64,000 bases of DNA, taken from positions 1 through 64,000 of the IMG/VR virus record IMGVR_UViG_3300048588_000136, one strand, 5' to 3'. The notes under the pieces were generated by a model. That model did not search any database. It worked only from the letters and a program-made list of their open reading frames with translations, and was not told where the DNA came from. This DNA comes from a virus. The position numbers and the translations under genes were made by a program. Shown here one piece after another: positions 3,550 to 43,006 of this stretch; position 1 is the stretch's first letter, and each line of letters starts with the position of its first letter.

Positions 3550-4680
3550 ATGGCACTACTTGAAACAATGACCGCAGACGAAGCAATCAAGCATGGTGTG
3601 ACAGTGTACCCGCATGTGGCGGAACCGCAAGCGCAACCGCTAGATTTGTCGCCGTGGACACTGTCGCCGTGGGCAAAGTGGGTGGCGGCGGATGCAGATG
3701 GCTATGTGGATGAATATGAATGCAAGCCGCATACGGATCGAGAAATGTGGGCATATGGTGGTCGATGTAAGATTGTTGGCCGTATTGACATGACCGGCAT
3801 CGATTGGCGCCAAACGCTGACGCCGGTGAACCAGGCCGACACCATTGAAGCTGCCCGCTGCATTCTTTCCGGCTTGACCGGCGGTGAATCGTCCGAGGTG
3901 GTGCAGCGGCGATTGTGGGGATACGAGGATGATGCGCAGCCGTGGTGTGAGCAGTGCAATCTGCCGCTTGACATTTGCCGCGGACACGATGATGGCGCTC
4001 AGTCTTCCGACTGGATGCAAGCGCATATTGCGGCAGAGGTGGCGGCGATTGACGAGCATGAAGCGTTCGCCTTCGCTGCTAACGCCGCGGTATCGCTTGA
4101 TAACATTGTGCTGAAACCATCCACCATTGACGTTGCCCACCACCACACGTACCCGTTAATCCACTGTGAGTGCGGCATGGCGTTCGTGCTGCTTGGCTGT
4201 GTGGCTGACACCGTATTCGAGCAGGGTACGCCGCCATTTTGCCCGTACTGTGGCAAGGGGCTAACCCCGCCGCCGCAGGTTGCCATTCATGCCGACGCTA
4301 TCCCCGCAGATGTGGCGTCGGCATTGCTGGCGCACCATAGCGCGGCATGGTGCGAACGGCTGTGCGATGAGTTGGCGAAGTTGTTGCCGTCTGTGCTAGT
4401 GTGGCAACTATCAACGCTGGATGGTGACGCCCTTGTCAACGCTGCTCGCCAACTGGCATATACCGACAGCGCCAAAGCCAACATGATTGCGGAGGCGCTG
4501 TGGAGTGAGGCAATGGACGCAGAGAACGCACGAATGGACACAGCGTTTCAATCTGCGGTCACGGTAGGACAACCAATAACGGCACGAGTAACGGCGACTG
4601 TGGTACGTCCTGAGTTCAGTGTTGATTACGACGCTGACGAATGTGACACCATGCCGGCAATGGCGGGGAGTGTGACGTAA
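3550..4680 (+). CDS. Hypothetical protein with two zinc-binding clusters
   Basis: This 376-residue protein has one cysteine cluster (CEQCNLPLDICRGH, residues 137-150) and a second (HCECG ... PPFCPYCGKGL, residues 202-240) that looks like a zinc ribbon. The N-terminal part resembles single-domain phage proteins that read W-x-K-W and carry mixed beta structure, but I cannot name the family. AAGGAG precedes ATG 3550. The C-terminal third is helical. Confidence 0.65.
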   Translation: MALLETMTADEAIKHGVTVYPHVAEPQAQPLDLSPWTLSPWAKWVAADADGYVDEYECKPHTDREMWAYGGRCKIVGRIDMTGIDWRQTLTPVNQADTIEAARCILSGLTGGESSEVVQRRLWGYEDDAQPWCEQCNLPLDICRGHDDGAQSSDWMQAHIAAEVAAIDEHEAFAFAANAAVSLDNIVLKPSTIDVAHHHTYPLIHCECGMAFVLLGCVADTVFEQGTPPFCPYCGKGLTPPPQVAIHADAIPADVASALLAHHSAAWCERLCDELAKLLPSVLVWQLSTLDGDALVNAARQLAYTDSAKANMIAEALWSEAMDAENARMDTAFQSAVTVGQPITARVTATVVRPEFSVDYDADECDTMPAMAGSVT

Positions 4681-9488: not shown

Positions 9489-11114
9489 ATGATGAAAACG
9501 CAGGATATCGGACGCTATTTACTCCACGGTGTCAACCGTCGCCACGACATGACCCTGGCACGGGCCGGCATCAACAGCGGGTGGAACATGGCTCGCCGCG
9601 CTGTTGGTAAACCGGCGGCTGATGCTGGCCTGTTGGAGTATGCTAAGGTGTCCGGTATCCGAGCGATTTCGTCATTGCTTGGTGTCAAGGCTGCGAAGCC
9701 GGAACAGTTGCCCGCCGGATGGCCGCAGGATGTGTTTGATATTGTGGCACGCGACATCCGTGTTCGTGGTGGCACGGTCAAATTGCCTGACGGGTTGACG
9801 CAACCGGCATTTCGACTGACCACACGCGGCGCTGTTGAATTACCGCATATGTGGATTGCCTTTGTTGAGCCGACTATTGAAGGCATGGGTAGCTACGATA
9901 CGGTGCTGGGTCTGGGCGAAGATATTGAGGAGTCACTGTCACACAAGGGTTTTAATTTTGGCGTTCGTGTTCAGCGTAGGCGTCTACGGATTGAGATTGA
10001 TAAGCCAAAGCCCGCACCCATTCACATGTCTGATGATTGGGAGTTATTAAAGGCACAACCAGTCAATCAGTTTGAGTATACATTTGGCACATACTTCGCT
10101 GATGGTGGGCTGCAAATTGGTATCGCTGATTTGCTTGACGAACGGGAGGCGCACGCCATTATTGCCGGCATGACAGGCAGCGGCAAAAGCCAGTTATCCT
10201 TGTCGATTCTATTATCGGCGGCGTTCAACACTAGCCCTGCGCACTTGTCGATGGTTATCATTGATCCGAAAGGCGTTGATTTTGCGGGTTTGGCCGGATT
10301 GCCGCACTTGGCAAACGGCAAGATTATCAATAGTTTGGATGATGCAGCCGTTGCCGTCCGCACTGTGTGCGCTGAGATGGACAAGCGTATGGCTGCCAAG
10401 GATACCAAGGCGATGCACAATCGCATCATGCTTTACATTGACGAAATCCCCAATTTACTCGATCTGGATCGGGCAAAAGGGGGCGACGGCGAAAGCCTGG
10501 AGGATATGCTGATTCGTATGGCACAAATCGGGCGCGGCGTTGGTATCAATGTTTTCCTGGCGGCGCAGCAGGCGACTAAAGATGTGATGTCTACTCGCAT
10601 CTTAAAGAACATGATTTGGCGCATGGTCGGTAGTGTGAGTAGCTTCGACGCATCGGTTCATCTATCCGGTCAATCTGGCTGTCTTGCCCACAAACTGCCG
10701 GGGCGCGGTTCGTTTCTGATGTACAATCCGCAATTTCGTGAAGGGCTGCGAGTGCAGGCGCATCTAGTGGCTGACCCGAAGCTGCCGGACTTTGCCCAGC
10801 GCATTGCGTTTTTCGTTGGTGATATAGCGGAACGCTGGGCCGGCATTCGTCCGCACTGGACGTTGCGCCTGGCCGAGCCGGAAGCGGAGACGGCGTATGT
10901 GCAGGATAGCTTACTTGACGATGAGAATATGTCCATTGTGCAGGTTGGGCGGCCCAAGGCGGAGTGGCCCACCGACTTCGTTGTTGATGTTGTCAAGGCT
11001 AAGGCGCAGTTGGGCGCCGATTTCACGGCTGGTACGATCCAGACGTTGTGGAAGTCAAAGTACAAGAAAACGCTCAACTACAATCGGGCGCTAGACCTGC
11101 ACGCTATGCTGTAA
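9489..11114 (+). CDS. FtsK/SpoIIIE-like DNA translocase
   Basis: This 541-residue ATPase has Walker A GMTGSGKSQ (residues 227-235), a DPKG segment typical of FtsK/TraB proteins near residue 258, Walker B with LYIDEIP (Asp318, Glu319), a glutamine-rich sensor region (FLAAQQATKD), and a C-terminal part ending in a small helical domain. It should form a hexamer that moves double-stranded DNA. There is no N-terminal membrane domain, unlike FtsK. Small membrane proteins next door could tether it. ATG 9489 is chosen over an in-frame upstream codon because GAGGATTTTAGGC precedes it. Roles in partition, conjugation-like transfer or resolution are possible. Confidence 0.85.
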   Translation: MMKTQDIGRYLLHGVNRRHDMTLARAGINSGWNMARRAVGKPAADAGLLEYAKVSGIRAISSLLGVKAAKPEQLPAGWPQDVFDIVARDIRVRGGTVKLPDGLTQPAFRLTTRGAVELPHMWIAFVEPTIEGMGSYDTVLGLGEDIEESLSHKGFNFGVRVQRRRLRIEIDKPKPAPIHMSDDWELLKAQPVNQFEYTFGTYFADGGLQIGIADLLDEREAHAIIAGMTGSGKSQLSLSILLSAAFNTSPAHLSMVIIDPKGVDFAGLAGLPHLANGKIINSLDDAAVAVRTVCAEMDKRMAAKDTKAMHNRIMLYIDEIPNLLDLDRAKGGDGESLEDMLIRMAQIGRGVGINVFLAAQQATKDVMSTRILKNMIWRMVGSVSSFDASVHLSGQSGCLAHKLPGRGSFLMYNPQFREGLRVQAHLVADPKLPDFAQRIAFFVGDIAERWAGIRPHWTLRLAEPEAETAYVQDSLLDDENMSIVQVGRPKAEWPTDFVVDVVKAKAQLGADFTAGTIQTLWKSKYKKTLNYNRALDLHAML

Positions 11115-16139: not shown

Positions 16140-16162
16140 AATGAGAACTAGTCTCAACTAGT
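16140..16162. promoter_or_regulatory. Operator-like repeats upstream of 16162 promoter
   Basis: TGAGAACTAGTCTCA (16142-16156) has inverted TGAGA/TCTCA ends and resembles the Fur-like box at 20118-20136. AACTAGT is also directly repeated at 16146 and 16156, exactly one helical turn apart. Both overlap the region just upstream of the -35 box. Confidence 0.5.
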
Positions 16163-16190
16163 TGCAAATGTAAGGCGAGCGTGGTATAAT
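16162..16190 (+). promoter_or_regulatory. Sigma-70-type promoter for the 16.2-20 kb operon
   Basis: TTGCAA (16162-16167), 17 bp, then consensus TATAAT (16185-16190). Transcription would start near 16197 and meet a terminator within about 10 bases. Confidence 0.8.
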
Positions 16191-16204
16191 CAGCGCATGT
16201 TGAT

Positions 16205-16241
16205 GCGCCACGTTGCCGCCTAGGTAGCCGTGGCGCTTTTT
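16205..16241 (+). terminator. Leader terminator in front of 16261
   Basis: GCGCCACG (16205-16212) pairs perfectly with CGTGGCGC (16229-16236), followed by TTTTT. It lies between the promoter and the ribosome site of the only following gene, so expression requires read-through or antitermination. Confidence 0.72.
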
Positions 16242-16260: not shown

Positions 16261-16833
16261 ATGCTGAACAGAGACGAATACCGGCGCTTTATCAACGCTG
16301 ACCAGCCGCTGACCAACACATCCGCCTATGCGCGCATTGACCGGGCGCCCACCGGCACAGCATGGCGGGCTGTGTGCGTGTACCATTTGCCGGCTGAGGT
16401 CAACAACCGAATGCTGATTGCGTTCTGCGACGTGCTGCAAGGCGGGTTGTGGGCCAACACAGCCGGTATGCGGATTGCCTACACATGGGAAGGGCGCACC
16501 GAGCCGCCATTGTACCGTCCATTTGAGAAGCGACCACCAGAGCCACGGGCACAGGTTGATTTGTACAAGGGACAGGTGACCACAGTGTGGGTTGACGATC
16601 CTCGCTATCCGTCGGATAAGGTCGCAGGCATTCACAGCGCTGTGGAAAATGGGCAGAATGGAAATAGTCTCTACCATAATAGCTTTGTGGTGTTCTGGGA
16701 GTTACGCAACGCCGTCATCATCTCGCCCATTGACCCGCCGACCGTACCAGGCGACGTGTCCGCATTGCAGGCGGAAGTGCAGCGACTGAAGGCGATTATT
16801 GCGAATGCGCAGAAGGCATTGGGTGCAGCATGA
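16261..16833 (+). CDS. Hypothetical protein, possible beta-sandwich
   Basis: The 190-residue product has a beta-rich middle (TAWRAVCVYHLP; GMRIAYTWEGR; AQVDLYKGQVTTVWV; NSFVVFWELR) like an Ig-type accessory module, and a C-terminal coiled coil (SALQAEVQRLKAIIANAQ). GGAGG precedes ATG 16261. It could be a virion or cell-wall accessory protein. I recognise no family. Confidence 0.6.
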   Translation: MLNRDEYRRFINADQPLTNTSAYARIDRAPTGTAWRAVCVYHLPAEVNNRMLIAFCDVLQGGLWANTAGMRIAYTWEGRTEPPLYRPFEKRPPEPRAQVDLYKGQVTTVWVDDPRYPSDKVAGIHSAVENGQNGNSLYHNSFVVFWELRNAVIISPIDPPTVPGDVSALQAEVQRLKAIIANAQKALGAA

Positions 16834-19973: not shown

Positions 19974-20065
19974 CCTGCGACACCATCTTTGTCTACAGCT
20001 TCATTCTCGGCACAATTTTCGGCATGGGGTTTTTCGCCTTCATGCTGTGGTTAGAGAGTTCGTAA
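19970..20065 (+). CDS. Tiny membrane protein
   Basis: A 31-residue frame starts at ATG 19970 in ATGA overlap with the phosphoesterase stop. It is nearly all hydrophobic (FVYSFILGTIFGMGFFAFML). Confidence 0.48.
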   Translation: MTCDTIFVYSFILGTIFGMGFFAFMLWLESS

Positions 20066-20082
20066 TGGAGCGTAACTGTCTC

Positions 20083-20111
20083 TTGAAATTGCCGTCATGT
20101 TGTGCTATACT
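20083..20111 (+). promoter_or_regulatory. Promoter of the first tRNA-like leader
   Basis: TTGAAA (20083-20088), 17 bp, TATACT (20106-20111), with an extended TGTGC before -10. The same TGTGCTATA-T box recurs at 32564-32574 and 42667-42677. Transcription would start near 20118. Confidence 0.78.
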
Positions 20112-20117
20112 ATCGTA

Positions 20118-20136
20118 AATGAGAATTATTCTCAAT
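20118..20136. promoter_or_regulatory. Fur-box-like palindrome at the start site
   Basis: AATGAGAATTATTCTCAAT contains the perfect 7-1-7 repeat TGAGAAT-T-ATTCTCA, the form recognised by Fur-family iron regulators. It covers the predicted start site, an efficient place to repress. Control by host Fur is inference. Confidence 0.5.
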
Positions 20137-20139
20137 CAC

Positions 20140-20273
20140 AGTGTGGCGGCGTGTGGGAAACGCAAGATGTCGTCTAGGCTAGTGTGAGAGAAGCGACTAC
20201 AGAGTAAGTGGTAGCCTACACCCATCTGAGTAGGTGATGATCTAGCCAGCCGGTTCGATTCCGGCCCACACTA
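20140..20273 (+). ncRNA. tRNA-like structured RNA (element 1)
   Basis: AGTGTGG (20140) pairs perfectly with CCACACT (20266-20272) as an acceptor-like stem. GCGT/ACGC (20149-20163) forms a D-arm with GGG in its loop. GCCGG-TTCGATT-CCGGC (20249-20265) is a canonical T-arm directly followed by the acceptor strand. In place of a normal anticodon arm there is AGATG...CATCT enclosing 53 bases with an inner TAGGCTA/TAGCCTA stem. No CCA is encoded and base 8 is C, not T. I therefore call it tRNA-like rather than a tRNA. Confidence 0.55.
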
Positions 20274-20276
20274 CTA

Positions 20277-20343
20277 CGCCTGACGGTGAACGTCGGACAC
20301 GTTGCCGTGAGTTGGCGAAAGATGCCAACCTAGCCGTCAGGCG
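20277..20343 (+). ncRNA. Three-way-junction leader RNA
   Basis: CGCCTGACGG and CCGTCAGGCG form a perfect 10-bp outer stem enclosing AACGT/ACGTT (20289-20303) and GTTGGC/GCCAAC (20311-20329) hairpins. It lies between element 1 and the ribosome site of 20368, so it may act as a leader or riboswitch-like element. It does not end in a T-run. Confidence 0.5.
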
Positions 20344-20367
20344 GAAAACATTATTTTGGAGGTCTGC

Positions 20368-20559
20368 ATGAAACTTCTGCCAATGCTGCAAGCCATCGCC
20401 GCTGTCGTCGCAAAGCTAAATCCTATGCCGCTGCTTGACGCTATCGAAGCGGAGTACGGCCGCACGGCGCGTCTGGTGGTCATCGCCGTGGTGGTGATTG
20501 TGGCTGTGGCTATCGGCTACAACATAGACAGCGTGACAGCGTGGGCAGGGCTGCAATGA
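20368..20559 (+). CDS. Small membrane protein (holin-like size)
   Basis: The 63-residue protein has an amphipathic N-terminal part and a strong C-terminal membrane helix (LVVIAVVVIVAVAIGY). TGGAGG precedes ATG 20368. It is the first gene after the structured leader. The holin role is only a guess from size. Confidence 0.55.
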   Translation: MKLLPMLQAIAAVVAKLNPMPLLDAIEAEYGRTARLVVIAVVVIVAVAIGYNIDSVTAWAGLQ

Positions 20560-32207: not shown

Positions 32208-32548
32208 GTGCTAGACTGTTGTTGCGCTATAGAGATTTACGTATGCTGCCACCACAATCCATTGCTGGTGATTTTGTCGAAATTGACGAGCATGTTTATG
32301 TGATTCGCCATCGATACATAGAATGGAACGGCTATGGACTTTATGAATCGTCATGGGTAGGTGATGCTCTTTTTATATACGATTGGCTGTTCTGGACAGG
32401 TGATTTGTGGTATCGCCGCACATTGTTATGGCTTGCCGGTGCGGGGTTAGCGGAGTATCCACCGGAAGGTTGTTTCCCATCGTGGATCGACGTAATGACG
32501 AGATGGAATAAGTTTTTATCGTTGGCTAAGAATAAATTTAGGTACTAG
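32204..32548 (+). CDS. Hypothetical protein
   Basis: The 114-residue protein has many aromatic residues (ALFIYDWLFWTGDLWYRRTL) and may be peripherally bound to membrane. It is the last gene before the second tRNA-like RNA; the -35 box of that RNA overlaps its stop. Confidence 0.55.
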   Translation: MSARLLLRYRDLRMLPPQSIAGDFVEIDEHVYVIRHRYIEWNGYGLYESSWVGDALFIYDWLFWTGDLWYRRTLLWLAGAGLAEYPPEGCFPSWIDVMTRWNKFLSLAKNKFRY

Positions 32549-32574
32549 ACAAAAACGCAAAGTTGTGCTATAGT
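32546..32574 (+). promoter_or_regulatory. Promoter of the second tRNA-like RNA
   Basis: TAGACA (32546-32551), 17 bp, TATAGT (32569-32574) with extended TGTGC. It predicts a start near 32581, four bases before the tRNA-like closing stem. Confidence 0.72.
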
Positions 32575-32580
32575 TTTCAC

Positions 32581-32776
32581 AGTGAATCATGCGGCATTGC
32601 GGATGGACGCAAGAAGAAGATGTTAGAGGTAGCGAGAGCAGGCCAAGCCCTCGATGAAACTGCTACCAGACGGTATCAATCCCGTCCCGCATGATTAACT
32701 TAATATCTTAACGGCATGAAACGTTAGACACATGGCGTCTGTGACAGGGTAACACCTGTTGCAGGCGCCTTTTTTA
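32581..32776 (+). ncRNA. tRNA-like small RNA with own promoter and terminator (element 2)
   Basis: AATCATGCGG (32585-32594) and CCGCATGATT (32687-32696) form a perfect 10-bp closing stem. TTGC/GCAA (32597-32612) makes a D-arm-like hairpin with GG in the loop. A long second arm is bounded by GGTAGC/GCTACC. GACGG/CCGTC (32669-32686) forms a T-arm-like hairpin directly stacked on the closing stem. The order of arms is the same as in element 1. An intrinsic terminator ends the unit, giving an RNA of about 195 bases. No anticodon or CCA is evident. Confidence 0.58.
32734..32775 (+). terminator. Intrinsic terminator before 32782
   Basis: GGCGTCTG pairs with CAGGCGCC, with a second inner stem ACAGG/CCTGT, followed by TTTTTT (32770-32775). 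It ends the tRNA-like RNA and stands only 7 bases before the next ATG. Confidence 0.8.
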
Positions 32777-32781
32777 TTTCT

Positions 32782-34770
32782 ATGCCCACATACACTTACA
32801 ACGGGGTGACGGTTACAGCCACAGGGCGCAGACCATCAACTCGTGACGATAAAAAATATATGCGAACAGTCACCCGTGATGGCAAGGATTATCTTATCCA
32901 TTACGGCGATCCCGATATGCCGATGCGTCGCAGTAACCCACAGGCACGGGCAAACTTTCTGTCACGGCACAGTTGCAGCACAAAGAAAGACCCATTGTCG
33001 CCGGGCTACTGGGCTTGTCTTGACTGGAGTCGCACCGACGAAGGAAAAAGCATGAGTGAGATTGCGGAGCTTCGCCAGCAATACGCTGAACTATTTCAGG
33101 TTGCACCAGATAGCAAATACAAGGGCGTAATGATTGCGCTCTATCCGTCCGCCGAGACGGCAACGCAGATTGCGGCCATCCCCGGTGTGGCCACGCCGCC
33201 GGAGGATCTACACGTCACGCTGGCCTACTTGGGCGGCGTCGATGGGCTGACTGACGTGCAGGTTGCGGGTGCTATCCTGGCGGCACAAAAAACAGCCACC
33301 TACGGCAAACCTGTCACCGGCAACATTAATGGAGTAGGGCGCTTCAACGCCAGCGAGAGCAGCGACGGACAAGATGTGATTTACGCCGTGGTTGACCTGC
33401 CGGGACTTGACGAATTGCGTGATTGCCTGATGGACGAATTGGACGAATGCGATTGTGAACCGTCCACGAGTCACGGCTACACACCCCATATGACGCTGGT
33501 ATACATTCCTGCCGGCACTGACTCGCCGGTTGGACTCGTGCCAACCATGCCGATCAGCTTTTCGTCAGTAAGCATCGCTGTCGGTGGAAAACGCGTTGAC
33601 TTTCCCTTGCTCAGCATGGAAAAGGAAGACGACGAGGAAAGCAGCGGAGAAATGAAGTATTCGGACGTTGCTGACCTGTGTGCCGATGGGCGCGGCTGGC
33701 GACTGTTCAATGAACATGAATTTGCCGAGCCGCCCGCCTGGGTGCCGTGCCTACCCAAGCCTGGAACATTCACGCATCCAAGTTACGGACAAATCAGCGT
33801 AACGCCGGATCGCAATCAACGATTCGTGCAGAACTTCAAAACCGGCGTGTATCAATCGCGCATTCCGGTAGATGCCGAGCACCAACTAAAAACAAGCGGC
33901 GCTGTTGGTTGGATTACGGATATGCGCCTAAACGAAGACGGCAGCGCCGATGCTCAGGTTGAATGGACGGACCGTGGGCAGTCTCTCATCAGATCCGACC
34001 GCTACAAATATGTATCGCCTGAATGGTACGACAAATGGACGGCGCCCGACACCGGCAACGAGCACAGCGATGTGCTAATCGGATTAGCGCTAACCACACG
34101 CCCATTCTTCAAAGAAAAATCACTGCGTCCGCTGGTGGCTTCTGAACGTGGGTTCTACACCACGGATGAGCAGGTATCCAGCAACACAACTGTTGTTTAT
34201 TTCAATGCATTTTCGGAGGTTTTAGACATGGCGGAAAAAGCCACAGAGCAACCAGTGACTGCTGTGCAGTTCGGTGAGTTGCAACAGAAGTTTGATGAAC
34301 TCAGCGGGAAGTTTGCCGCGGCAGAGGCGGCCCGTACTGAGGCAGAAGTGAAGGCGAAGCAATACGCAGAGGCGCTTGACGGCGCCAACGCCCGTGTGGC
34401 GGCCCTTGAGGCGACTGCCCAACGCAAGCGGTTTGGTGAATTGTCGGCCAACTGGTTTGGCAAGGCTGATGACAACGTGAACATGTTGACCAAGCTGGCG
34501 CAGGCGTTTGGTGAGGAATCGGCCGAGTTTGCCACCTATGTTACCCAGCAGCGCGCCATTGCCGAGCAGATGAAGCAAAGTAAACTGTTTGAGGAAATCG
34601 GTAGCAACAAATCAGATCTTAACCCAAAGACGGCCACGCAAAAATTTAGTGATGCCGTGTTGACGGTGATGGGCGAACGCAAGGTTGACTACGCAACTGC
34701 CGCCACTGTGGTTGCCGGTACACAACCGCAATTGTACAGCGAATATGTCGCAGAACAGCGAGGCAAATAA
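32782..34770 (+). CDS. 2H-phosphoesterase / Mu-I-like prohead protease / scaffold fusion
   Basis: The 662-residue protein has four parts. Residues 1-90 hold a cysteine-containing motif (RANFLSRHSCSTKKDPLSPG) seen in phage head proteins. Residues 110-285 form a LigT/2H phosphoesterase with both HxT motifs (LHVTLAY, His144/Thr146; PHMTLVY, His236/Thr238). Residues 300-460 resemble the Mu I-type prohead protease, with DAEH at 364-367 and SPEW near 412. Residues 483-662 are a coiled-coil scaffold. The first ATG has no ribosome site; ATG 33052, after AAGGAAAAAGC, is an alternative start that keeps the 2H domain. Confidence 0.75.
   Translation: MPTYTYNGVTVTATGRRPSTRDDKKYMRTVTRDGKDYLIHYGDPDMPMRRSNPQARANFLSRHSCSTKKDPLSPGYWACLDWSRTDEGKSMSEIAELRQQYAELFQVAPDSKYKGVMIALYPSAETATQIAAIPGVATPPEDLHVTLAYLGGVDGLTDVQVAGAILAAQKTATYGKPVTGNINGVGRFNASESSDGQDVIYAVVDLPGLDELRDCLMDELDECDCEPSTSHGYTPHMTLVYIPAGTDSPVGLVPTMPISFSSVSIAVGGKRVDFPLLSMEKEDDEESSGEMKYSDVADLCADGRGWRLFNEHEFAEPPAWVPCLPKPGTFTHPSYGQISVTPDRNQRFVQNFKTGVYQSRIPVDAEHQLKTSGAVGWITDMRLNEDGSADAQVEWTDRGQSLIRSDRYKYVSPEWYDKWTAPDTGNEHSDVLIGLALTTRPFFKEKSLRPLVASERGFYTTDEQVSSNTTVVYFNAFSEVLDMAEKATEQPVTAVQFGELQQKFDELSGKFAAAEAARTEAEVKAKQYAEALDGANARVAALEATAQRKRFGELSANWFGKADDNVNMLTKLAQAFGEESAEFATYVTQQRAIAEQMKQSKLFEEIGSNKSDLNPKTATQKFSDAVLTVMGERKVDYATAATVVAGTQPQLYSEYVAEQRGK
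34228..34770 (+). CDS. Scaffold protein from an internal start
   Basis: CGGAGG lies 8 bases before ATG 34228, in frame within the fusion gene. The product would be the 180-residue coiled-coil scaffold alone. The layout mirrors lambda C/Nu3 and Mu I/Z, where the scaffold is also made from an internal start. Confidence 0.65.
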   Translation: MAEKATEQPVTAVQFGELQQKFDELSGKFAAAEAARTEAEVKAKQYAEALDGANARVAALEATAQRKRFGELSANWFGKADDNVNMLTKLAQAFGEESAEFATYVTQQRAIAEQMKQSKLFEEIGSNKSDLNPKTATQKFSDAVLTVMGERKVDYATAATVVAGTQPQLYSEYVAEQRGK

Positions 34771-38040: not shown

Positions 38041-39072
38041 ATGTCGGCAACATCGGAAGCCAATTCATTAGGTTCATTTTTTGCCGTGGGGGTGCAAGGT
38101 GCTAAGGGTACAGCCGCAACCACGCTATATAAGCTAATCGCCACCGATAGCGGTTTGGCGCCTGAGTTTGAATACCGCGACACGCGACTGGAACATCCAA
38201 GCGCCGGTGGCACAACGTCATGGGCGCGGGCCAACGTCAATCAGATCACCGGCTACATTGGCAAGGCTACTGTGACTTTTGCGATGCGTCCGAAGGGGAT
38301 TGTGCCGGTGTTGCAGGGCGTTGGTTTTCAAGTTGTGACCACCAACAACACGACCAACTATTCGCACGCTTTAACCCAAGGCACCGACGCCGCTCACAAA
38401 TGGGTCACCGCCATCTGGAAAGTGGACGACAGCGACGCCGCCTACTACCAACGCGGTGTCGATGGCCGTTGTACGTCACTGACGATCACGGTCAACACTG
38501 ACGAAATCATGTGTACGGCTGAAATCAGTTTCCTTTCTGTGGCGCCACTGTCGGGTAGCCCAACCTATGTTGCTGAACAGTCGGATGAAATCGTGCCCTG
38601 GGTTGGTGCCAGAACTGGCATCACGATTGGCGGGTACACGGTAGTCGAAGTATTGCGTGGTGCTGAGATTGGATTTGAGAATACCCTGCGTGACCAAGAC
38701 AAAGCGTTGTGGACACAGACGCGTGTTAATATGCAACGCCAGTCTATCAACGGTACCTGCAACTTTACCGAAATCAATGTGTCCGATTCGATCTATGAGG
38801 CGCTGTACTATGGCGCTGATGCTGGTTCGACGGTGGCCACAGCCCCCGTTACTGGCGCGGTGGACGTTGAGTGGCGTAGCGCCGCCAATATCAGCGGCGC
38901 CGTAGTGCCGTACAAGTTTCAATATGCTGCGCCGTCGGTGCAGTGGGAAGCCGGCGGAATGCCGACAGCTAGCGGTGACAACCTTGTCACTATCGGCGCT
39001 AACGGTACCGTCGTTGGTAACGTGTCCACACCGATCACTGTGACGGTCGTCAACAATGTAGCGAGTTACTAA
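38041..39072 (+). CDS. Major tail tube protein
   Basis: The 343-residue beta protein starts SLGSFFAVGVQGAKGTAATT and contains repeated strands with paired Gly, and a Thr/Val-rich C-terminal Ig-like end. Position directly before a frameshifted chaperone pair is diagnostic. GGGGAG precedes ATG 38041. Confidence 0.78.
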   Translation: MSATSEANSLGSFFAVGVQGAKGTAATTLYKLIATDSGLAPEFEYRDTRLEHPSAGGTTSWARANVNQITGYIGKATVTFAMRPKGIVPVLQGVGFQVVTTNNTTNYSHALTQGTDAAHKWVTAIWKVDDSDAAYYQRGVDGRCTSLTITVNTDEIMCTAEISFLSVAPLSGSPTYVAEQSDEIVPWVGARTGITIGGYTVVEVLRGAEIGFENTLRDQDKALWTQTRVNMQRQSINGTCNFTEINVSDSIYEALYYGADAGSTVATAPVTGAVDVEWRSAANISGAVVPYKFQYAAPSVQWEAGGMPTASGDNLVTIGANGTVVGNVSTPITVTVVNNVASY

Positions 39073-42648: not shown

Positions 42649-42677
42649 TATACAAAAATGTAATTTTGTGCTATACT
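42649..42677 (+). promoter_or_regulatory. Extended -10 promoter of a small RNA
   Basis: TGTGCTATACT (42667-42677) is an extended -10; the -35 position reads TATACA at 17 bp. The same box precedes both tRNA-like elements. Confidence 0.6.
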
Positions 42678-42683
42678 TTCCGT

Positions 42684-42758
42684 AGCGAATTTAATACTTA
42701 AGCGCCTAGAGCGCCCACACCGAACGCCAGGAGCGTCCAGTGATGGGCGCTTTTTTAT
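42684..42758 (+). ncRNA. Candidate small RNA ending in a terminator
   Basis: The RNA would run from about 42684 to a strong terminator: AGCGCCCA (42709) with TGGGCGCT, inner ACGC/GCGT hairpin, then TTTTTT at about 42752. No ORF fits inside. Its first 30 bases (TTTAATACTTAA) resemble the segment after tRNA-like element 2 (CTTAATATCTTAA). Confidence 0.5.
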
Positions 42759-43006
42759 TTCCCGGTCAATGGGTTACGTGGTGGGGATGGGAGCGTTTGC
42801 GTCATCTGCTGTTGTTCTGCGAGTCGTCGTGCGGCGTCTTGGTTGGCGATGACCTGCTGGAGTTCAATCTGTTTTCTGAGCAGGTCAATAATTTCGTTGA
42901 TACGAAAATACCAGAGTATTACCTCTCTGATTAAGTAGAAGACGAGTCCAATCGCTACCGAGCCGACTACCAGGATGACTAATATACCCGACCAATCTGG
43001 AGACAT
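42755..43006 (-). CDS. Membrane-anchored coiled-coil protein
   Basis: The 83-residue protein has one N-terminal membrane helix (ILVILVVGSVAIGLVFYLI) and a Gln/Arg-rich coiled coil. GAAAGGAAAA precedes ATG 43006. It is convergent with the small RNA. Confidence 0.6.
   Translation of the reverse strand: MSPDWSGILVILVVGSVAIGLVFYLIREVILWYFRINEIIDLLRKQIELQQVIANQDAARRLAEQQQMTQTLPSPPRNPLTGK

Follow-up and report, generated by a model that had tools for sequence, protein, structure and literature searches.

A single promoter in the phage DNA studied here is followed by two folded RNAs in tandem, a tRNA-like RNA and a three-way-junction (3WJ) RNA. The latter is the more important find: it is a copy of an RNA that is widespread in bacteria and tied there to DUF3800 genes, an identity that had gone unrecognised when a three-way-junction RNA was originally predicted between the tRNA-like element and the next gene. 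The window, i.e. the whole stretch of DNA analysed, covers positions 1-64000 of a virus record 89,357 bases long and contains tailed-phage head and portal genes. From position 20083 onwards, its order is promoter, palindrome, tRNA-like RNA (designated E1; 20140-20272, plus strand), four bases, 3WJ RNA (20277-20343, plus strand), ribosome-binding site and a gene for a protein of 63 amino acids, and the roughly 215 bases that separate the promoter and palindrome from the gene at 20368 form an RNA cassette. Blastn comparison of 20060-20380 with phages gave no match.

The good promoter claimed for this region was recovered as a sigma-70-type sequence on the plus strand (20083-20111), composed of the -35 element TTGAAA (20083-20088), a 17-base spacer and the -10 element TATACT (20106-20111), which agrees with the consensus at 10 of 12 positions and is extended by a TG before the -10. 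It is followed on the same strand by the perfect 7-1-7 palindrome TGAGAATTATTCTCA (20120-20134), which lies at the presumed transcript start and may serve as an operator and/or a 5' hairpin; a near copy with two mismatches was observed at 16142-16156. The gene downstream of the RNAs (20368-20559, plus strand) follows a GGAGG and encodes a small membrane-type protein with a weak match to phrog_26666; terminator prediction gave nothing in the interval from E1 to this gene. Besides, inspection by eye pointed to two more places in the window (16184-16240 and 42650-42765) where a promoter-like sequence is followed by a short hairpin RNA and a terminator, the former directly preceding a gene at 16261.

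The 3WJ RNA is closed by a stem, P1 (20277-20286/20334-20343), which encloses the junction strand UGAACGUC (20287-20294), hairpin 1 (20295-20306), the linker GUGA (20307-20310), hairpin 2 (20311-20329) and the linker CUAG (20330-20333), and its fold is better than that of shuffled sequences (z -4.05). This copy conforms to the family pattern of closing stem, UGAAMGUC (UGAA[AC]GUC), 3-bp hairpin, GUG, second hairpin, CUAG and closing stem. Its membership in the family was assessed with R1, a covariance model of the 3WJ RNA defined in this analysis and trained on 10 bacterial RNAs and zero phage sequences, with the window left out; the training set consisted of nine of ten bacterial pattern matches plus a second copy from a Candidatus Aquidulcis genome (L406), while the remaining match, L392, was omitted as it is cut by its contig end. 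R1 found one match in the 64 kb, at 20273-20347 (40.2 bits, E 1.4e-8). Judged from the alignments, the 3WJ RNA covaries strongly: 14 of the 19 pairs changed on both sides among the 10 training RNAs, and 16 of 19 did so among 27 distinct rows that included phages, with 95% of the cells paired and none of 500 shuffles reaching as high, although the latter alignment was made to R1 and so leans towards the model. The junctions, which are the least variable part of the family, are kept in the window, whose copy is otherwise the weakest of five phage copies and deviates in hairpin 1 and GUGA. No U-run follows its closing stem, and the window RNA may therefore remain within the messenger.

This RNA found no match in Rfam 15. 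The window copy and the phage copies at L118 and L120 gave no Rfam match, bacterial copies searched in sets of 6 and 8 loci at E up to 1 yielded no family at the cut-off, and two weak sub-threshold matches (Leu_leader and BjrC1505) in the set of 8 overlap a single RNA, that of L451. Rfam motifs such as DUF3800-I and DUF3800-IX are likewise structured RNAs beside bacterial DUF3800 genes, yet none of the Rfam DUF3800 families matched the window or the bacterial loci, and the window RNA differs from them in standing alone in a phage. When RNAs of this kind were compared by blastn with phages and plasmids, either no matches or short chance matches resulted. The DUF3800-associated RNA motifs reportedly stem from Weinberg et al. 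2017; we found no earlier description of the present RNA in the literature searched, and it may correspond to a motif of that work kept outside Rfam.

A pattern search of genomes located the RNA in 10 bacterial contigs, with hosts among Ignavibacteriae, Planctomycetota, Candidatus Aquidulcis, Blastocatellia and Galliscardovia. Several of these copies (for example L387, L391 and L393) look like small RNA genes, in which the closing stem together with a U-run forms the terminator. The RNA is linked to DUF3800 on the evidence of gene order, as a DUF3800 gene lies tail to tail with it in 8 of the 10 pattern matches, and no such neighbour was detected in the other two (L388 and L394). When R1 was run over 792 genomes from two phyla, 16 loci in 14 genomes (7 of 392 and 7 of 400) were obtained, three of which are training loci; among the 13 further loci, a DUF3800 gene again lies tail to tail with the RNA in 10, while no DUF3800 neighbour was detected at the remaining three, which are the weakest matches (30-34 bits). 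Three of four neighbour proteins exceeded the cut-off for Pfam DUF3800 (PF12686) and the fourth fell just under it; the neighbour proteins also match PADLOC DUF3800_VII. None of 30 Chloroflexota DUF3800 loci had such an RNA nearby, so that the association is confined to a subset of DUF3800 proteins. The tail-to-tail placement could also reflect antisense control of the DUF3800 messenger.

Six proteins near the bacterial copies were compared with PADLOC, and the two restriction/repair matches and one TIR-effector match obtained are at most suggestive. Individual examples are L390, where the DUF3800 and RNA locus lies near a TIR-effector-like gene, and L393, where it lies near Vsr and type II restriction-like genes. 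In the available text of one study, DUF3800 is noted near putative RNAs and is predicted to adopt an RNase H-like fold (PMC10910872).

The RNA is found alone in five phage records. In addition to the window, the viral pattern matches fall on four contigs, and R1 applied to 63 sources (1.1 Mb) scored these copies at 59.1 (L386), 53.2 (L118), 50.1 (L120) and 48.2 bits (L316), the next match having an E of 0.56. The descriptor "stem, TGAANGTC, CTAG, stem" occurs at just three places in the loci searched, namely the window, L118 and L120. With a looser pattern at least 80 loci were hit, and among the matches listed L316 and L325 (on the L120 contig) alone were RNA-like, while the others resembled chance matches in coding sequence. 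None of these five records, which may be fragments, gave a match to DUF3800 (PF12686), and no two-part DUF3800 and RNA locus was seen in the record of the window over its full length. In L118 and L120 the RNA follows a TTGACA-17-TATACT promoter and precedes a terminator, the whole unit sitting directly before the head protease gene. In L386 a tRNA-Asp gene ends about 240 bases ahead of the RNA, and a terminator-like hairpin separates the two. The record of L120 (L231) also bears, around 38990-39061, a tRNA 3' half scoring 15.2 bits with RF00005, in a prophage attachment-like stretch followed, by eye, by a probable integrase gene.

E1 is real, albeit a weaker case than the 3WJ RNA, and it is not a tRNA. 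It comprises an acceptor-like helix (20140-20146/20266-20272; pair probability 0.72-0.99), a D-like hairpin (about 20147-20172), a middle helix, GGCTAG/CTAGCC (20177-20182/20242-20247; 0.83-0.92), beside the T arm, and the T arm itself, GCCGG TTCGATT CCGGC (20249-20265; 0.98-1.0). As in a tRNA, the acceptor has 7 bp and the T arm 5 bp with a TTCRANT-type loop. The acceptor and T arm of the original prediction were therefore reproduced in the fold ensemble, whereas the D arm as drawn there (GCGT/ACGC) reached a pair probability of 5%, a longer hairpin with the loop GGAAA being preferred at the same place. Similarly, the long arm proposed in place of the anticodon arm is best read as the middle helix, whereas the pairing AGATG/CATCT around a 53-base insertion has a probability of 0.01. 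Other observations agreed with what had been claimed: CCA is absent after the acceptor, position 8 is C instead of T, ARAGORN called neither a tRNA nor a tmRNA in the window, and Rfam, RF00005 included, gave nothing at gathering. Below that level only tRNA-Sec came up at E1 (19.7 bits, E 0.22), and its alignment covered another part of the element.

Several identities were considered for E1 and discarded. A standard tRNA, a tmRNA and a Y RNA were rejected since no model matched; the third acceptor pair is U-A without the G3-U70 of tmRNA, and YrlA, the bacterial Y RNA of Rfam, had no match at E1 or at the two further tRNA-like elements described below. A type II tRNA with an anticodon-loop intron was rejected on the low probability of AGATG/CATCT, and the tRNA half of an attP site was rejected because the 5' acceptor strand is present. 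Folded alone, E1 was no better than shuffled sequences (z -1.15). A descriptor of acceptor, D and T arms matched the window twice, at E1 and at an element near 32.6 kb, compared with zero to two matches in each of 20 dinucleotide shuffles (sum 12, mean 0.6); since one shuffle also gave two, the descriptor alone is not significant, and support for E1 as a tRNA-like RNA comes from comparison.

The element near 32.6 kb, which had been put forward as a relative, is indeed a diverged partner of E1, and was designated E2 (32585-32696, plus strand). It is preceded by the promoter TAGACA-17-TATAGT (32546-32574, plus strand) and followed by an intrinsic terminator (32734-32779, plus strand) just before the head-protease gene at 32782, and consists of a 10-bp acceptor, a D arm (32597-32612), a middle helix (32628-32633/32662-32667) and a T arm (32669-32686) with an 8-base loop. 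By sequence comparison, E1 and E2 have a tRNA-like architecture in common: they agree in the order of their parts and in the -10 context TTGTGCTATA, and all 22 pairs of four arms are standard in both, 12 of them differing on both sides in a compensated manner, the homologous arms having been picked by our own choice. Their global alignment surpassed all of 1000 shuffles, to which the likeness of the T arms contributes. The proposal of a tRNA mimic is thus supported in the sense of a tRNA-shaped RNA that is not a tRNA. A covariance model built from E1 and E2 was discarded, as the aligner misplaced the arms.

A third element, E3, was found in L003, a relative whose terminase is 73% identical, as a 79-base tRNA-like RNA (10515-10593 of that phage) with an acceptor of 13-14 bp, and occupies the slot of E2 between the minor-head gene and the head protease. 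Both E2 (z -3.77) and E3 (z -4.29) fold better than shuffled sequences. The sequence of E3 shows no likeness beyond chance to that of E1 (120 of 500 shuffles as good) or E2 (346 of 500). The earlier alternative of a degraded tRNA is disfavoured because the acceptors of E2 and E3 exceed that of a tRNA and the paired arms are intact. Searches with all three elements by nhmmer and blastn in 444 loci (4.4 Mb) returned E3 itself and chance pieces, and a scan of minor-head relatives gave one weak locus. A tRNA-like descriptor was moreover run over 264 loci (3.2 Mb), a match being listed if the D arm was present in the minimum-energy fold or the score was >24, a rule that excludes E1; among the matches listed were E2, E3, known or altered tRNAs (L076 and L197) and matches resembling chance in coding sequence. 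Further tRNA-like elements were noted in distant phages, at 563-632 and 7796-7881 of L026 and at 4031-4128 and about 4135-4240 of L076; those of L026 had no ARAGORN call, and the first scored 29.9 bits with mascRNA-menRNA, below the cut-off. The head-maturation protease directly after E2 (32782-34770) was seen to contain, within its N-terminal half, a 2'-5' RNA ligase / 2H phosphoesterase domain. This fold is also used by phage anti-CBASS enzymes.

Comparison with close relatives indicated that the two RNAs come and go together. In L011 and L088 the upstream metallophosphoesterase gene is 86-87% identical, the same promoter and a near-identical palindrome are found at the same place, and the small gene has its counterpart, yet the palindrome is directly followed by the ribosome-binding site of this gene and both RNAs are missing. 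About 215 bases therefore vary as a unit between close relatives, and both RNAs are dispensable for that gene slot. This argues against the antiterminator suggested originally, at least as a needed function, as does the lack of any predicted terminator for it to act on ahead of the small gene. The slot preceding the head-protease gene was likewise compared in 18 sequences, drawn from 41 loci and L003. It holds a tRNA-like RNA in the window and in L003 and the DUF3800-type RNA in L118 and L120, so that the two kinds of RNA occupy equivalent sites; in L105-L107, whose proteases are 97-99% identical to that of L003, it contains only a hairpin. Unrelated short RNAs, flanked by a strong promoter-like sequence and a terminator, were observed in this slot in L112 (from the record of L010), L114 and L116.

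Arguing by analogy, we tentatively favour the reading that the cassette decoys or mimics the RNA component of a DUF3800 system in the host, E1 being a processing or protecting module. In bacteria the DUF3800 protein, a candidate effector of RNase H-like type, would bind the RNA, and the phage would make the 3WJ RNA alone from a strong promoter in order to occupy or pacify this protein. E1, positioned four bases before the 3WJ stem, might allow enzymes of tRNA processing to define where the decoy starts; alternatively, it could protect the transcript or be a decoy in its own right for a tRNA-binding host factor. With rather more doubt, we speculate that such phages carry RNA-only counter-defence cassettes, in which an orphan copy of an uncatalogued RNA that pairs with DUF3800 effectors is carried and is joined by a tRNA-shaped release module or second decoy.

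Known systems offer models for this reading. ToxI is the pseudoknot partner RNA of ToxN. According to the accessible part of the source, pseudo-ToxI of phage PhiTE is a lone RNA copy directed against ToxIN (PMC3475682); it resembles the present case as a phage RNA imitating the RNA partner of a toxin-like protein, although RNA and protein are both different from 3WJ and DUF3800. The Racr RNAs, RNA-based anti-CRISPRs, are described in the available text as lone phage copies of host RNAs that act against CRISPR (PMC10651486), and share with the window RNA the state of a single phage-borne copy of the RNA of a host system, under its own promoter and without the protein partner. They imitate CRISPR repeats, however, and their function was tested, whereas the host system would here be DUF3800 and a decoy role is proposed from sequence. 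Phage-borne tRNAs are reported, in the part of the source consulted, to counter tRNA-cutting defences (PMC11555353); E1 is comparable as a tRNA-shaped phage RNA with a possible counter-defence role, but has no anticodon arm of normal size. Like E1, mascRNA, the tRNA domain of tmRNA and YrlA keep acceptor and T arm with the anticodon part replaced, yet none of these families was matched by E1, E2 or E3 in Rfam.

A rather unlikely alternative is that both RNAs are a cis-acting leader serving their own transcript only, by 5' protection, RNase P/Z cutting or control of elongation or translation of the 20368 gene. Their location between promoter and gene with no predicted terminator is consistent with this, as is the missing U-run of the window 3WJ RNA, which makes a cis role possible, and several related head-protease genes among the 18 slots have a promoter, a structured RNA and a terminator just upstream. 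But L011 and L088 lack these RNAs although promoter and gene slot are shared, several bacterial copies of the 3WJ RNA resemble free-standing RNA genes, and a strong terminator follows E2, as expected for a free RNA.

We regard it as improbable that the pair are functionless tandem relics, i.e. captured host tRNA-like and RNA genes in decay. The loss of the cassette in L011 and L088, that of the L003 element in L105-L107 despite nearly identical proteases, and the poor fold of E1 alone would fit decay, whereas the changes between E1 and E2 are compensated, the least variable junctions of the 3WJ family persist in the window copy and the strong promoter has been kept. It seems improbable too, if anything slightly more so, that the phage RNA recruits or feeds a DUF3800 protein of the host so that the phage benefits from it, for instance through RNA cutting, instead of blocking it. 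The predicted RNase H-like fold and the occurrence of DUF3800 near RNAs (available text of PMC10910872) speak for this; however, the phage would rely on a host gene, as no DUF3800 match exists in the phage records with the RNA, and this gene was missing at E up to 1e-6 in 340 of 400 sampled Chloroflexota genomes, which may not represent the phylum of the phage host.

DUF3800-linked RNAs and RNA decoys are already known kinds; what is new, as far as the literature searched shows, is that phages have solitary copies, here preceded by a tRNA-shaped module. The covarying RNA of one DUF3800 clade together with the lone phage copies offers a direct route to testing the function of these proteins. 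The tRNA-like elements, in turn, reveal a class of phage RNA overlooked by automatic tRNA callers. The pattern resembles that of a host system and its phage-borne mimic. If the decoy reading is true, the stand-alone DUF3800 and RNA locus would be a bacterial anti-phage system of the protein-RNA type, and may add another type of RNA to those copied by phages from their hosts, after CRISPR repeats and ToxI.
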